A stretch of DNA of 62,268 bases. It comes from Flavobacteriales bacterium. Its GTDB lineage: Bacteria; Bacteroidota; Bacteroidia; Flavobacteriales_F; PHOS-HE28. The notes beneath the pieces were generated by a model. The model ran no database searches. It saw only the letters and a list, made by a program, of their open reading frames with translations, and had not been told where the DNA came from. The translations under genes and the position numbers were made by a program. The stretch is taken from contig JABWBQ010000010.1 in assembly GCA_013360395.1 (NCBI GenBank), positions 1-62,268 of the forward strand. Direction: 5' to 3'. Of the stretch, positions 6,044 to 61,900 are shown one piece after another (the first letter of the stretch is position 1; each line of letters begins with the position of its first letter).

Positions 6044-7179
6044 GCAGCACGCGCGCCTGCGTCCTGGTGCCCACGTACAACAACGCCGCCACCGTGGAAG
6101 GCGTGCTGCGTGCGGTGCAGGCCGTGGGCGAGCGCGACATCCTGGTGGTGAACGACGGCAGCACCGACGGCACGGCGGCGATCCTGGCGCGGATCGACGG
6201 CATCACGGTGCTCACCAACGACCGCAACCGCGGCAAGGGCTTCTCGCTGCGGCGCGGCTTCGAGGTGGCGCTGGCGCAGGGCTTCGCGTACGCCATCACC
6301 ATCGACAGCGACGGGCAGCACGCCCCGAGCGAGATCGCCAAGCTGCGCGCCGCCATCGCCGCCAACCCCGGCGCGATGATCATGGGCGCGCGCGACATGA
6401 GCGGCGCCGACGTGCCCGGCAAGAGCAGCTTCGGCAACCGTTTCAGCAACTTCTGGTTCCGGGTGGAGACGGGCTGGAAACTGAGCGACACGCAGACCGG
6501 CTTCCGCGCCTATCCGCTGGCGGCCACCTGTTCCTTCCGCGCATGGACCACGCGGTTCGAGTACGAGGTGGAGACCATCGTGCGGCTGGCCTGGCGCGAT
6601 GTGCCCTTCGTGCAGGTGCCCGTGAGCGTACGCTACGACTTCCCCGAGCGCGTGTCGCACTTCCGACCGGGCAAGGACTTCCTGCGCATCAGCCTGTTGA
6701 ACACCGTGCTGGTGACCCTGGCCTTCCTGTGGCACTGGCCGAAGCAACTGCTCACGGGCGGGCGGCTGTGGCGACGGCTGAAGGAGGAGGCGGTGCGTCC
6801 CGAGGAGAGCTCCTGGCACAAGGCGCTCAGCATCGGCTTCGGGCTCTTCATGGGCATCGTGCCCATCTGGGGCTTCCAGCTGGCGGTGGGCATCCCGCTG
6901 GCCTTCCTGCTGAAGCTGAACCGCGTGCTCTTCGTGGCGGCGGCCAACATCAGCATCCCGCCCATGATCCCCCTGATCGTGTACGCCAGCTACCGCATGG
7001 GCGCGCCCTTCGTGGGCGACGACCGGGTGCGCATTGAACGCTTCGCCGACCTCACGCTGGAGGCCATCCACTGGAACATGATGCAATACCTGCTGGGCGC
7101 CGTACTGCTGGCGGTGGCGGCCGGAGCGGTGGGCACGTTGGCGAGCTGGGCCGTGTTGCGGGCGGCGCGGGGGCGGTAG
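6040..7179 (+). CDS. glycosyltransferase family 2 fused to DUF2062
   Basis: A 379-residue two-part protein. Residues 1-220 are a GT-A glycosyltransferase: VPTYNN, VVNDGST, GKGFSLRRGF, and DSDGQH for nucleotide-sugar and metal binding. Residues about 240-375 form a DUF2062 membrane domain with several hydrophobic helices (GFGLFMGIVPIWGFQLAVG, VAAANISIPPMIPLIVY). This fusion is typical of flexirubin/aryl-polyene clusters of Bacteroidota. It is the last gene of the tightly packed run and probably modifies the lipid headgroup at the inner membrane. Confidence 0.88.
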   Translation: MSSTRACVLVPTYNNAATVEGVLRAVQAVGERDILVVNDGSTDGTAAILARIDGITVLTNDRNRGKGFSLRRGFEVALAQGFAYAITIDSDGQHAPSEIAKLRAAIAANPGAMIMGARDMSGADVPGKSSFGNRFSNFWFRVETGWKLSDTQTGFRAYPLAATCSFRAWTTRFEYEVETIVRLAWRDVPFVQVPVSVRYDFPERVSHFRPGKDFLRISLLNTVLVTLAFLWHWPKQLLTGGRLWRRLKEEAVRPEESSWHKALSIGFGLFMGIVPIWGFQLAVGIPLAFLLKLNRVLFVAAANISIPPMIPLIVYASYRMGAPFVGDDRVRIERFADLTLEAIHWNMMQYLLGAVLLAVAAGAVGTLASWAVLRAARGR

Positions 7180-54284: not shown

Positions 54285-55760
54285 TCATGGTTGCACCACC
54301 ACCGTGGCCCTGCCCGATCTGCCCTGCGCCGTTCGCACGCGCACGGCATATACACCTGCCGCCGCCCCGGGCAAGTCAAGCACGTGTGCATTGCTCAGCA
54401 TCCGCTCCGTGCGCAGCACCTGCCCCTGTGCATCCAGCACCTGCAAGGTAGCACCTTGCGCCCCCTCCGGCAGTTGCACCTGCACCCGCCCGCTGGTGGG
54501 GTTTGGGTACACCTGTAGTTGCAGTGGCTGATCCACCTCCTCCACCCCCACATTCAGCCCGTACAAGCGGCTCACGAAGCGCTGCTGCGGGTCGTTGGTG
54601 GTGCCATCGTCATACCCCACGTAGCTGCCGTAGATGTACCAGTTGCCGATGGGGTCTTGGACCATGCCATTGGTAGCGGCATTGCTTACGGTGCCGTTGG
54701 CATAAGTTCCGCAGCCGTCGCCCGAAAACACATCCGGCAAAAGCACTCCATTTGCCGAAATCAAGGCTATACCATGACGGGTTTCCCCATCAACTTCAAC
54801 GAAATCCCCATGCAAGGCAATGCGGCCGTCCGGCAGCACAGTATGATGCCACGCCCCGAAACCAGGTATGTCCGCACCGACCACATCCAGCTGGTAGTTG
54901 AAGGTGCTGTCCAATGCACCATCCGGCAGAAGGCGTGCGATATTCAACGTGTCGGACGAACCCGCCAACGTGTAAAAGCCGGTGACGATGATCCTGCCGT
55001 CTGGTAGTTCGGTCAGTTGATCGATGCCTCCACCTGGCAAATTGGAGTAGAAGGTGGTGTCCAAACTGCCATCTGAATGGAGACGGAACAGAGATGAGAC
55101 CGGATGCCCGTCAAAAGCGGATAGATAGGATGCACAGATGAACTTCCCGTTCGACAGCTGTACGATGCGCCTCAACAACGACGCTCCCTGGCCGCGGTGG
55201 GTGGCGGTCGTATCCAACGTACCATCCGCATTGCGCCATGCTAGACCGTAGAAACCGGTAAAACCATGCACCGTGTCGCTCAGCTCGAAGTAACCAACGG
55301 TCAATAGACCGCTGTCCGGCAACACGGCGTAGTCGTACACCACACCCCACTCATAGAACTCCGAAGAATCGGCCGCGAAGGTGGTATCCTCCGCTCCGTT
55401 CAACCAAAGCCTGCGCAACTTGAAGTAGTCGATCGTGTAAAACCGATCGTTCCAGCGGGTCAGATCGCTGCCCATGCGTGGTTGAAGCTCGAACTGCGGA
55501 TCAGGTGAGCCAGCAGCGTTCAATCGTACGCCATTGCGGGTAAGGACCGTATCTCCGGTCAGCTTGAAAGCTCCGCCAGCGATCAGCGACCCGTCCTCCA
55601 GCGCGAGGACCGACGAGGCTCCCCGACTTCCTGGGGATGTCACCACTGGAACCCTGAACGACGTATCGAGGTCGAAGGGTTGCTGGCACCATGCATCCAT
55701 CCAGCCAACCACCAAAAGCAGGCAGGTCAAGTACCGACAGCCGATCGATGGGTGCTTCAT
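54285..55760 (-). CDS. delta-60-repeat-like secreted protein with T9SS type A domain (paralogue 1)
   Basis: A 491-residue protein with signal peptide MKHPSIGCRYLTCLLLVVGW and a following WCQQ. The body has repeated blades with LEDGSLIAGGAF, DGRIIVTGFY, PDGALDSTFNYQL and PDGRIALHGDFVEVDG, as in delta-60 or beta-propeller repeats. The C-terminal about 85 residues are a T9SS type A domain (LQVYPNPTSGRVQVQLPEG). The final 127 residues (about 365-491) are nearly identical to the paralogue at 56096-57538, while the rest is only distantly similar. Likely secreted adhesin or binding protein. Confidence 0.78.
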   Translation of the reverse strand: MKHPSIGCRYLTCLLLVVGWMDAWCQQPFDLDTSFRVPVVTSPGSRGASSVLALEDGSLIAGGAFKLTGDTVLTRNGVRLNAAGSPDPQFELQPRMGSDLTRWNDRFYTIDYFKLRRLWLNGAEDTTFAADSSEFYEWGVVYDYAVLPDSGLLTVGYFELSDTVHGFTGFYGLAWRNADGTLDTTATHRGQGASLLRRIVQLSNGKFICASYLSAFDGHPVSSLFRLHSDGSLDTTFYSNLPGGGIDQLTELPDGRIIVTGFYTLAGSSDTLNIARLLPDGALDSTFNYQLDVVGADIPGFGAWHHTVLPDGRIALHGDFVEVDGETRHGIALISANGVLLPDVFSGDGCGTYANGTVSNAATNGMVQDPIGNWYIYGSYVGYDDGTTNDPQQRFVSRLYGLNVGVEEVDQPLQLQVYPNPTSGRVQVQLPEGAQGATLQVLDAQGQVLRTERMLSNAHVLDLPGAAAGVYAVRVRTAQGRSGRATVVVQP

Positions 55761-56095
55761 AGTGTGCTCGGATTGGTCGGAGCCAAGGTCGTCGTACCTC
55801 GCGTTCAGCACCACACCGCTCCTTGGCCAGATCGGCCGCTGGCTAAACAGACCTCTGATGCGGAAATAGTCAAGGCAGCCTAGTGCTCAACAACCACCAG
55901 TGCTTTGCCCACACGCCCAATTGGTGTGGCCCCCCCCCGCTCCACCTCGCGTGTTCCCATTGCGCGTGAGGCGCGCACTGGGCCGCCGCTTGGCTTCGCC
56001 GAGTGGCCCTCGGTCGCGGACCTGGGGTCCGAAGAATTCACCTTGACGTTCAGTTTGGTTCGTTTGATCCATTGCTCCAAGCTGCCATGCACTCC
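55761..56095. other. non-coding spacer between paralogues
   Basis: A 335-base gap. No gene is recognised. It contains a poly-C run (GGCCCCCCCCC near 55929-55938) and an inverted pair CCACAC/GTGTGG around 55909-55929. The last 10 bases repeat the sequence after the other paralogue's 3' end (CTCCTCATGG). The promoter of paralogue 1 should lie at its left edge. Confidence 0.5.
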
Positions 56096-57538
56096 TCATG
56101 GTTGCACCACCACCGTGGCCCTGCCCGATCTGCCCTGCGCCGTTCGCACGCGCACGGCATATACACCTGCCGCCGCCTCGGACAAGTCCAGCACATGCGC
56201 ATTCCCGTGCATCAACTCGGTGCGCAGCACCTGCCCCTGTGCATCCAGCACCTGCAAGGTGGCACCTTGCTCGCCCTCCGGCAGTTGCACCTGCACCCGC
56301 CCGCTGGTGGGGTTTGGGTACACCTGTAGTTGCAGTGGCTGATCCACCTCTTCAACCCCCACGTTCAGCCCGTACAACCGGCTCACGAAGCGCTGCTGCG
56401 GGTCGTTGGTGGTGCCATCGTCATACCCCACGTAGCTGCCGTAGATGTACCAGTTGCCGATGGGGTCCTGGGTCATGCCAACCGCAGCGTGCAGGACCGA
56501 GAACCCGTCATTGTAGTCACCACACCCCTCCCCAAAGAAGGCATCGCTCTGCAAGAAACCATCGGCATCCAAGAGCGCGATACCGTTCCGTGTTTGACCT
56601 TCCACCTCGTAGAACTGGCCGTGAATTGCGATCCGGCCATCCGGCAACATCGTGTGCCACATTGGTGAATACGCGCCAAATGTTTCCCGTGGAGCAGCCA
56701 ATTCATTGTTGAAAGTTGGGTCCAGCGATCCATCCGGCATTAGACGTATGATCTTCAGAGTATCCGTGGATCCATTGGGAACAAAGTAGCCTGTTGCGAT
56801 TGCCCGACCGTCTGGTAACGCCGTGAATGCATCCGCCATTCCTATCGGGATATCCGTCTGGAACGTCGTATCCAAAGCCCCATCCGCCTGCACGCGGAAC
56901 ACCCGCCCAACAGGTTGTCCTTCGTACACCGAACACAAACCGCTGCACAGGAACTTGCCATCGGGCTGTTCCTTGATGGTGTAGATGGCGTTGTTGGCCT
57001 TCCGATGAGTGCGCGTGGTGTCCAAATAGCCCGTGTTGCTGAACCACACCAAGCTGTGCAGGCCGGTGAACCCACGTATGGTGTCATGAAGGCTGTGCCA
57101 ACCGCTTACCAACAGTCTACCGTCGGGGTACACATGGTAGTCACCACCTTGGCCGCTGGAGAAGTAAGGGTCGTCGTTCATCATGATGAACGACGGGTCC
57201 AGGTAGCCATCACCATCCAAACGCCGCACAATAGCGCCGTTGCCTGCATAATACCCGTTGGCCCATGACGTGAGCTTGCCACCCGCAGGCACACCGAAGT
57301 TCCAGGACAGGTCCAGTGCGCCATCGACTTCCACTCGAGCAAGCGAATGCTCACCGGCCACCCAAGCAAAGTTCAAGCGGCCTGACACTAGGAGTTTTCC
57401 GTCCGGCATTACCGCCAGCGAATTCACATTGCGCGAGAGTACAGCACACCTGAACGTGGTATCCAGATCGAACGGCGCTTGAGCACCGCCACTGTGGGCC
57501 GCGCAAAGCGCGGCCCACAGCAGGGCTGTGCGTTTCAT
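56096..57538 (-). CDS. delta-60-repeat-like secreted protein with T9SS type A domain (paralogue 2)
   Basis: A 480-residue protein with signal peptide MKRTALLWAALCAAHSGGAQ. It has repeats of the same type as paralogue 1 (MPDGKLLVSGRL, PDGRLLVSGWHSL, PDGRAIATGYF, PDGSLDPTFNNEL) and a T9SS type A domain almost identical to that of paralogue 1. The ATG at 57538 is chosen because it overlaps the TGA of the upstream giant gene (57535), the usual coupling in this window. Alternative start at 57547. Confidence 0.78.
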   Translation of the reverse strand: MKRTALLWAALCAAHSGGAQAPFDLDTTFRCAVLSRNVNSLAVMPDGKLLVSGRLNFAWVAGEHSLARVEVDGALDLSWNFGVPAGGKLTSWANGYYAGNGAIVRRLDGDGYLDPSFIMMNDDPYFSSGQGGDYHVYPDGRLLVSGWHSLHDTIRGFTGLHSLVWFSNTGYLDTTRTHRKANNAIYTIKEQPDGKFLCSGLCSVYEGQPVGRVFRVQADGALDTTFQTDIPIGMADAFTALPDGRAIATGYFVPNGSTDTLKIIRLMPDGSLDPTFNNELAAPRETFGAYSPMWHTMLPDGRIAIHGQFYEVEGQTRNGIALLDADGFLQSDAFFGEGCGDYNDGFSVLHAAVGMTQDPIGNWYIYGSYVGYDDGTTNDPQQRFVSRLYGLNVGVEEVDQPLQLQVYPNPTSGRVQVQLPEGEQGATLQVLDAQGQVLRTELMHGNAHVLDLSEAAAGVYAVRVRTAQGRSGRATVVVQP

Positions 57539-60500
57539 CGCTGGCATATGAACTTGGCCACCGCTATAGATGTTCCGTTGTTGATCAGTTCCACCGTGTA
57601 GCTGCCGGGCTCCGCCGCGCGGCAGTCCCACACCAGTTGCTGTTCCATGGTGGCTACAGGGGCTTGCCATACTGTGCGCCCCATTACATCGCGCACCACC
57701 ACCAAGGCATTGTGCGGTGTGGCGTTCAACCGCACGTTCATGGCCAGCCAGGTGGTGGCGGGGTTGGGCATCACCTCAAGGTTGGGTTGCAGGGATTCTT
57801 CTTGCACGGCGAAGCTCAACATGCTCGGACTACGGTTGGCATCGCTACCGGTCATTGGTGTGCGGCACTGGCCGTATGCAAAGCATAGGAGGTTCTGTGC
57901 CCATGTAGCGGGCCGATCGTAGTCCTCGCCAACAATGCTCACCAGTTGGGCCACCTCACCAGCATTCAGTTCGGCAAGGGTGCGGCCGCTGCCGGTTACC
58001 GTGGCACAGAAGGCTATGAGGTCCAGCATGCGCTGGCGCTCCATGCCCGTGGCGGTGCGCAGTTCATGTTCCACGGGTATGCTGGTCACCACATCGGTGG
58101 CCATGCCGTGGTTGCCCTGCTGCAAGTATGTGAGCGCTTCAGCATATCGAGCAGCGGGCGTGCGCAATTGTTGCAAGCCCCACCGCAAGCTGTCCACGTC
58201 TTCGTGCGTGGTGTCGTTGCGGAACTCGTCAAGCACTTCGTGCAGGTGTTGGGTCATGGCCGCATGGTGTTGGCTCATTTGATCTTCCAAAGTGGCGCGG
58301 TAAGTGCGCTCATTCCAGCTGGCCAGCACACTGGCGAGCAGGTAGGCGGGCAATGGGTGTCCACTTTCCTCTTGCAGCCATTGCATGAACCGCTCTTGCT
58401 GGGTAGCTTCAGGATTGGCAATGAGCACCTCTGCCACCATGGCGGCGGGCAAAATGTTCCGATCAACCATCTCTCGCAAGGACTCAGTGCTTAAAAATGG
58501 GCTCTTTGCAAGAAGGTATTCCCGCAGCTCCCAAGCTTGGTTTGGCCATGTGCTCATGATCTCCTGCACCACCTCATCGGTGTTGCCGCCATCGATCAAT
58601 GCGGCGAAGAGATAGCGCGTGTTCCCATAGGCCAATTTTTCGCTTTGCAGCGCGGCCTTGGCTTGTGCTGCTTCCGTGATGGACCGCGCACCGCGTGGAC
58701 GGTAACTGCGCGGTGGACATGGGTCGGCTGGCTCGCTATCGGCTGCCTCCTTGGTCACTGGCGATGCAGGGTCCAAGGTGTAGCACAGTGGTTCAGCCTG
58801 GGTAGTGGTACCGTAGATGTACCGCAACACGCCGTTGGGGCTGGTGCGCTTATAGTCGCCTTCCGGGTTCAGGCAGGTCTGGTCGAACACGTTGGCCGCA
58901 GGAAGGTCCATTTGCCCTTGGTTGGTGCGCATGGTGTGCCAACTGCCATTCTGAAAATCCTGATCTACTTTTCTATCCCAGAAATCGTATTCGTTGCCTT
59001 GGTTGGTGTTGCACAGGAACTGCAAGCCCACGTTGTTGGTGCCGCCAACGGGTAAAACGCTGTTGTCGTAGTCGGCACAGAGTCCTTCGCCAATGAAGCC
59101 AACCTCAAGCCCAACAGCGGTATTGCGGCGCACCATGTCGTTGTAGTCGCGCGTGTAGCCGATCACAATGCCCTCGGTCTCGAAGTGGGTGCCACTTTGG
59201 GTGAGCAGATTGTCCTCCACCCACATGCCGTAACTCTCCGTGCTGAAGATGCCTCGGTGCCGACCGGCCCAAAACTCCTCATCCGTGAAATTCGTCAACG
59301 CCGTCACCACGCTGTTGCCCAACTCGAACTCGTTGCGGGTAACACGGTAGCCCACCACCCCACTGGCGAACACGCCGCACACGTTGGCGCTGAAGGTGCT
59401 GCGGTCCACCACGAAGGCGCGGGTGGTAAGGCCCGTAAGGGCATGCACGCCGTGGTCCAAGCCGCTAAAGCTGCTGGGGGTGTAGCTGCCCACGGGGCAC
59501 TCCTGGCCCTGCTGGATGATGATGTTGCACTTCTCGCGCACTTCGTAGTGGGCATCGAGGCTGTAGATGCCGTGGCCCCGCTCGTGGCTGTTGGTCTCGC
59601 CCCGAAGGTTCGCGAACGTGCAGCCCAGGAAGGGTATGCCGTCCACGTGCCAGAGGTTGGCGTGGTGCCGGAAGTCGATGGCCACGGGGTAGTCGGCATC
59701 CACCACGAAGGTGGTATTGGTGAAGCGGCTGCGGTTGCGCTGCGTTTGGGTGCCCTGTATGTTCATGCCTTGGTAGGGCAGGAAGCGCACGCCGGTGCGG
59801 CAATTCTTGAAGGTGCTGTTGCTGCTGATGATGACACCGCCGCTCTTCAACCCGTTGAAGCCGGGCCCCACGCGCTGGCCGGTGAGCGCGCCGATATCGG
59901 CTTTCTCCACCAGCGTGTTCTGGATGATGAATTCGCCCTGATGGTCGGCATGGGCACCACCGAACTGGTGCTGGTTGAAGGTGCCCTGCACTTCCACGCC
60001 ACGCCACATATAGCCGGGGCAGGCGGTGGTTAGGGTGCAGCCTACGGCGGTGAAAGAAGCGCCCTTTTCAATGATGAGCTTGGCCTGCGGTCCGAACCGG
60101 AAGGTCAACCCCTGCACATCGATGTGTGCGTTGGTCTGCACGCGGAACTCGCCGTTGACGTAGATCTCCGAACCCGCATCGCAGAACAGGTTGTTGCCGG
60201 GTTGCCAGTTGTACGTGCCTGGTGGAATGCTCCAACTGCGATCGTAGTACTGCGCACGTTCATCGCAGCAGAGGCCACCGGTCCAGAGGCCCGGCGTTGC
60301 AAAATCGGTGATCTGTTTGCCCACCATGCGGTATTCCACCGGATCGCCGCCCACATCATAGGTGGCCACTGAGGCGAGTTGTTGGATGTTGGGCATCCAC
60401 ACACCGTTGGCCGGGTCATCAGGGTTGCTGAAGGCGCTGAGGTAGCGGTTGCCGTTGGCATCGGCGCTCACCATGTAGAGGGCCGGAGGACCACCGTTGG

Positions 60501-61900
60501 GGCCCACGTTGATCTCCAGACGCGAGTTGAAAAGGCCCTGGCTCACCGCATCGGGCCCAATGGGAACGTAGGTGGGCATAGAACCCGGAGGTGCGGTAAC
60601 GTCGAAGGTGCCCAGGGCAGTGCTCGGAGCACCGCCATACAATTCATGATCGGACTTGAGGAACCACAGATACATGCCATTAGGCGAGAATTCGAGACCC
60701 GTGGTGCGCTGCTCAGCCACCGGGTTGCCCAGAATATCCTGCGGGTTCATACCCGTAACGATGTGACCAACCTCATAGAGCCTGGGGTTCCAGTCAGCTG
60801 TTCCTGGAGCACCATAGTCGAACGCCGCCGTGGGCAGTGGTGCAGAAAGCCCGGCGAGATCGATATCAATGACGTAAAGGCCCACATGCTTCTCTGTCGG
60901 TGGGCCGGTCTGCCAGTATGCGGAATAGGCCATTCGAAGGTCGTTCCCGTTCTGGTGCAGTTCCATTTCGCCACGGTCGGACACATCGCCATCCTGGAAG
61001 TCCCACAAGATGATCTGCCCGTTCTGATCGCCCTGCGTTTTGTTGATATGAAGGACCATTCTTGGTCCTGTGGCGGAAAAAAGAATGAAACTGATCTCCG
61101 TATTGGTGTCGAGTCCCATCAGGGATCGATCATCGTTGTCGAGATCGATCACGTCCGTGCGGATGTGGTCCAAGCCAGTGTTGGCAAGGTGCATATCGTA
61201 GTGGAACAGGTAGGCCATCGGACCGTTCCCGTATATGGACCACCCACCCATTGCGGTGATGGCGCCGTTGTCCATTTCAAAAGGGCCATTGAAGTAGTCG
61301 TCCTCGCCCCAAAAGCGGCCTGTGATCGGCTTGCCGACCGCAGCATAATGCTGCGCTCCGTTCAACTCCAGGTCATTGGGCAGGGTGAGGTCAAGGATCC
61401 CGACAACAAGGCCGGATTCAGCGTTGCCTCCCACTTCGACGTAAACTCCTGGCATGGCCACATAGAACTTGGAGCAATGGCCAGGTACCGGAATGAAGTG
61501 CGCTTCTGCTGCGATCTTGGGAAGGCAGACTTGGCAGTTACCATCGTTCAGAACGCCATCGTCATCGTCTGCCAATAGGTAGCCATCCTTGTTGTAAAGG
61601 TTGCCGTCAACGATGAAGAAGAGCAGTTCGCCGTTCTCATCGAATTGCACGTTCTGGTGGTACTGTGCCACCTGGCCCTGGTACTCGAACGCGTCGTTCA
61701 CCGCAGCATCCGGGCATTGCGGTGCTGCGCTTTCCACGATGCCGTTATTGAGCACATCACCGAAATCGAGCACATGGTTCCCGTTGAACCACAACGGTTG
61801 CTGCGCCAACGCCTCACCAGTGAACGAACTCCACCCCACCGGGGGGGGAGATACAGATGGAAAGCACCAACGCGGCTCTGAGAAAGGAATACGTCTTCAT
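57535..61900 (-). CDS. giant T9SS beta-helix protein, frame broken at a C8 run
   Basis: The main open frame (61839 to 57535) encodes 1434 residues: an N-terminal region resembling a propeller of surface proteins (about 1-560), a right-handed beta-helix with many NCRTGV- and NSTFKNC-like turns (about 560-960), a helical part, and a T9SS type A C-terminus (VMPNPATTWLAMNVRL). It lacks a proper signal peptide. One frame over, the ATG at 61900 encodes MKTYSFLRAALVLSICIS, a good signal peptide. The two join if the run of eight C (61841-61848, minus) has seven. Either phase variation or sequencing error. Confidence 0.75.

Follow-up and report, generated by a model that had tools for sequence, protein, structure and literature searches.

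A candidate contingency tract in the signal peptide of a giant secreted protein from a Flavobacteriales bacterium

The window analyzed here is a stretch of 62,268 nucleotides from a Flavobacteriales bacterium (GenBank assembly GCA_013360395.1, contig JABWBQ010000010.1) and represents the whole of contig C84 in a genome of 139 contigs, known from a single draft assembly. Near its far end, on the minus strand, an ATG (61900-61898, 368 nt from the contig end) opens MKTYSFLRAALVLSICISPP, the front part of a signal peptide (MKTYSFLRAALVLSICI, 61849..61900) with a similar counterpart in homologues, which runs directly into eight C (61841..61848). As assembled, this run is out of frame, and the reading from the ATG closes at a TGA (61814..61816) with a product of 28 residues. 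With the run one C shorter, the ATG frame enters an open reading frame of 1434 codons, giving 1454 aa in total, and the joined frame begins with a normal-looking signal peptide whose rear part (61804..61840) extends to ALA, with cleavage before QQ. This cleavage site was placed by eye, and signal peptides in general were assessed by eye and hydropathy. Only when the frame is joined across the run does the giant protein have an N-terminal signal peptide, and the reading frame is determined by how many bases this tract in the 5′ coding part contains. An earlier sequence-only reading of this DNA had described both the signal peptide broken by C8 and a stop and its repair by the loss of one C, and both hold.

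The 1434-codon frame itself starts mechanically at a GTG (61837..61839, minus strand), and the same reading had left room for this codon as the true start. No hydrophobic stretch follows it, and the signal peptide of the relatives spans the run; we judge that it is not the real start, and a protein beginning there, devoid of an ordinary signal peptide, is extremely improbable.

The mature giant protein (57535..61803, minus strand) comprises an N-terminal beta-propeller-like region, a middle part, and a C-terminal secretion tail. A propeller-like model of middling quality (mean pLDDT of 62) was obtained for the N-terminal 547 residues, with matches to generic propellers only, from which no function follows. 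Relatives of the middle part include beta-helix matches, and the tract-bearing relatives L099 and L171 have beta-helix or NosD matches. The C terminus (57547..57771) resembles Por_Secre_tail at 20 bits, below the Pfam cut-off of 27, and four of eight giant-family members match TIGR04183 at an E value of ≤0.01. Since the sorting-domain match of the giant protein (P0001) falls below the cut-off, its export through the type IX secretion system (T9SS) is likely rather than proven. The giant gene ends in an ATGA (57535..57538) in which its stop codon overlaps the start codon of the gene that follows. This second gene (56096..57538) and a third (54285..55760), both on the minus strand, each encode a signal peptide, a DUF5122 propeller, and a T9SS sorting domain, and their products (P0002 and P0003) pass the cut-off. 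The cluster holds a second tract, G9 on the coding strand (55930..55938, minus strand), which falls outside the coding part, 170 nt ahead of the start codon of the third gene. The ATGA overlap was found at seven loci (the window, L002, L005, L008, L009, L117, and the SprB-type L148), and in other relatives the two genes overlap by a single base or lie a few bases apart.

The giant protein was matched in 34 of 58 genomes, most strongly within its genus. We compared 29 family N termini by script, a set to which L117 and L176 had been added and from which 10 of 37 listed rows, all distant, low-GC relatives without a run of at least 8, had been omitted. In 23 of the 29 the leader contains a tract, and in 20 the tract is present and the gene is out of frame when read from the ATG that most resembles the start of a signal peptide. 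These 20 include the window gene, a member with an interrupted run (C5AC6 in L008), and one from outside the genus (L235), and their wrong phases split evenly, 10 and 10. The sole tract-bearing member in frame, L234, also comes from outside the genus, giving 1 in frame among 21 decided cases; L155 and L202 have a tract and no clear ATG, and L323, scored as in frame by another script, was dropped as lacking an ATG in the expected position. The phase calls depend on the ATG chosen, and L003, L015, and L241 have an additional, farther ATG in the open frame that lacks a signal-peptide-like start. When only uninterrupted runs were counted and L319 was added, 19 of 19 were out of frame, with lengths of 8 to 16, in a list whose loci from named collections are assigned to a genus only in part. 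Six members (L004, L021, L109, L135, L164, and L233) have no run of at least 8, most of them with an intact signal-peptide frame. In most members the run lies 49 to 58 nt downstream of the ATG, and elsewhere at 7 to 76 nt, a variability which suggests that the tract of this family may have arisen more than once.

In the homologues, the signal peptide contains C or G runs 9 to 16 long, in both wrong phases, ahead of coding parts that are intact and conserved, as expected of the slipped-strand layout that the sequence-only reading had proposed. That reading had also named sequencing error as an alternative, one that accurate reads and relatives all showing seven C would point to; the uninterrupted family tracts are 8 to 16 long. 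An error confined to this contig, with a true run of another length and a gene that is simply on, draws on the proximity of the contig end 368 nt away, on the error-prone nature of homopolymers, and on the single draft assembly, and it retains some force for this one sequence. It leaves unexplained, however, why many other assemblies, including the one-contig genome G010, carry runs at this position or close to it, and random errors would leave about one in three genes in frame, against the 0 of 20 observed (p = 3e-4, or about 0.002 for 1 of 21 with L234 included, both p values being computed on related sequences that are not independent). Many other C8 to C10 runs of the same genome also sit within long open frames. 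In a codon-model control of 28 runs of this genome flanked on either side by coding-like sequence, 17 proved in frame and 11 out of frame, a soft control in which several of the 11 out-of-frame calls look like gene starts or antisense readings. Overall, we regard an error in this contig as unlikely.

A programmed ribosomal frameshift or transcriptional slippage at the run, with the gene permanently out of frame and corrected during expression, would fit one observation: within the genus, every tract-bearing member that could be decided is out of frame and yet conserved. A programmed site would be expected to keep its phase and length, whereas here both wrong phases are equally common and the tract takes many lengths. 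Moreover, the frame is ordinary in most members that lack a tract, and in-frame tracts occur in other families, making such a mechanism very unlikely. Simple neutral slippage would yield one in three copies in frame, and the excess of out-of-frame copies is also a point against the slipped-strand interpretation.

The assembled gene is out of frame, but a frameshifted pseudogene would hardly keep 1434 stop-free codons, and the same layout recurs across many species. The mature parts of 11 pairs of tract-bearing, out-of-frame members gave dN/dS values of 0.06 to 0.43, well below 1 although most pairs approach saturation at synonymous sites, which argues that these genes are not dead and renders the pseudogene highly improbable. 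Tract length also differs among closely related copies with conserved flanks. Genome G024 carries four SprB-type paralogues with C9, C10, C12, and C16 between alignable flanks, the four being 77 to 91% alike in pairwise comparisons over about 1600 nt, and the leader copies described below show the same.

A C8 run by itself is unremarkable in this genome, which holds 51 separate runs of at least 8, most of its C8 and longer runs lying in ordinary genes or between genes. In the window, C7 matches are in fact rarer than expected, with 9 found where shuffled sequences average 30.6. We rejected the number of C runs as evidence, as these genomes are GC-rich and composition can account for it. We counted C runs, pooled with G runs, in the fetched stretches, using open reading frames of at least 200 codons and a crude signal-peptide filter that misses cases and passes some doubtful ones, alike at all run lengths. 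Runs lying 120 nt or less from the end of a stretch were excluded, six of which were at least 11 long. The share of runs inside signal peptides was 74/2381 for C5, 11/414 for C6, 2/82 for C7, and 3/64 for C8, rising to 9/73 for C9 to C10 and 18/86 for C11 and longer. Runs of 9 or more are thus enriched in signal peptides (27/159 versus 87/2877 for runs of 5 to 7; p = 7e-12, with two of the counted runs, in L158, belonging to one gene), whereas C8 runs are not (3/64 versus 87/2877; p = 0.45). The C8 at 61841-61848 therefore stands out only because the relatives have longer runs in this position or close by. Five of the 27 signal-peptide cases of C9 or longer are in frame (p = 0.07 for at most 5 if one in three is expected).

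Across 45 genomes of the genus there are 129 runs of C11 or longer and 12 of A11 or longer. The genomes of group g43 (about 2 Mb) reach up to 36 runs of C11 or longer, far above most of the class. At contig ends of G004 and G024 (L124, L131, L157, and L158), very long C or G runs are clustered and are likely assembly artefacts. Away from gene starts, a C12 (L138, 6073) and a C11 (L170, 6009) were seen in an NRPS-like and a subtilisin-like gene, respectively, both named by eye.

The sequence-only reading had recommended a search for similar tracts in other T9SS genes, and they were found in two further kinds of secreted protein. SprB-repeat proteins show the same layout in L134, L149, L189, L201, and L083, the last from the window's own genome, where a run at 6998-7007 represents a second out-of-frame signal-peptide tract, and DUF7948 proteins show it in L116 and L118. 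Of 19 tract genes outside the giant family, 13 are out of frame whichever listed ATG is used and 3 (L133, L174, and L196) are in frame with all of them, while in another 3 (L132, L147, and L149) the ATGs upstream of the run fall into two frames; 6 are thus in frame from at least one ATG. With ATGs in two frames, a product would be made in two of the three phases, and expression could take more than two states. Of the runs at 30 loci outside the genus, some lie in signal peptides, among them one at a SusC-like start (L263) and one that is in frame (L259).

With 9 to 16 C or G in this position or nearby in relatives, the C8 looks like part of a slippage-driven on/off switch, and we consider it probable that it is a contingency tract for slipped-strand phase variation of a secreted-protein operon, caught by this contig in the OFF state. 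Slipped-strand mispairing during replication would alter the length of the tract, and in one phase of three the front of the signal peptide would join the 1434-codon frame. In phase, the full secreted protein with its T9SS-like tail would be made; out of phase, as in the contig, only the 28-residue peptide. Because the next ATG overlaps the stop of the giant gene, expression of the second gene would probably be lowered too when the first is untranslated. This overlap, together with the DUF5122 domains and T9SS tails encoded by the next genes, suggests that a single run could gate an operon of surface proteins. We infer that the length change is reversible in living populations, that it affects the downstream genes, that the products reach the surface, and that switching brings a benefit, for example in avoiding phage, grazers, or costly adhesion. 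Genes of this kind are prone to annotation as broken or with a wrong start.

Slippage switches are known mainly from host-adapted pathogens and commensals. In the poly-G and poly-C contingency genes of Campylobacter and Neisseria, C/G homopolymers control the translation of surface functions. Those homopolymers are of a length similar to the ones described here; the genes are non-homologous, and here the tract sits in the signal peptide of T9SS-type cargo. The gonococcal opa genes also share several features with our locus, namely, a repeat in the signal-sequence region, a full protein in one frame only, and membership in families of surface proteins, as described in a 2026 study (PMC13183285). 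The same study gives a mean of 1.7 in-frame opa genes per isolate against 3.4 expected (PMC13183285), and in-frame copies are below one in three in opa and the giant family alike. The opa repeats, however, are CTCTT pentanucleotides, whereas here a mononucleotide C or G run is found in Flavobacteriales, in T9SS-type cargo and coupled operons; with a different kind of run and different proteins, the giant gene would work like opa and is not a member of that group. For the present system the evidence is assembled sequence, and switching is proposed. Poly-A and poly-T tracts near gene starts, such as that of inlA, likewise combine a 5′ homopolymer with reversible inactivation, but they consist of A or T rather than C or G and are tied to no single secretion class (PMC2831843). 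Within the same phylum, the Bacteroides invertase systems also vary surface proteins by phase, through DNA inversion instead of the slippage proposed here, and phase variation in Bacteroidota is known mainly in that form (PMC11868660). Among the openly licensed articles in PMC, judged by titles and the openings of abstracts, we found none that describes T9SS cargo, or any gene of Flavobacteriales, as phase-variable through slippage. If correct, our interpretation would extend slippage switching to environmental, uncultured Flavobacteriales and to T9SS-type cargo.

Some tract-bearing leaders are far more alike than the proteins behind them. In L184 (5961-6057) and L185 (4735-4831), both from G028, the leader DNA is 96% alike, against 62% for the upstream DNA and, in the mature part, 61% over the first 300 nt and 46% over the first 1000. 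Copies of this leader occur in G028, G020, G013, G031, and G066, with five strong matches in the first, three in the second, and one in each of the others. Eight leaders pooled gave a synonymous difference of 0.19, compared to about 0.5 to 0.7 in mature parts, which come partly from other pairs. The window's own leader does not belong to this set of near copies (no match in G000). The likeness could stem from gene conversion, from cassette exchange, or from constraint on the leader DNA or RNA. A speculative extension, which we put forward tentatively and rate as rather doubtful, is modular antigenic variation, in which near-identical phase-variable leader cassettes, kept alike by gene conversion, would precede diverging passengers and gate coupled operons that are OFF by default. 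Such a default would mean that few variants are displayed at once, and copies consisting of a leader plus a tail could be empty shells from or for passenger exchange.

Short copies with 78 to 110 codons after the leader were observed in L318 (G028:C31), L322 (G020:C27), and L317 (G028:C26). L318 and L322 consist of the leader plus a T9SS tail, with the middle missing. These short copies could be deletions or assembly joins.
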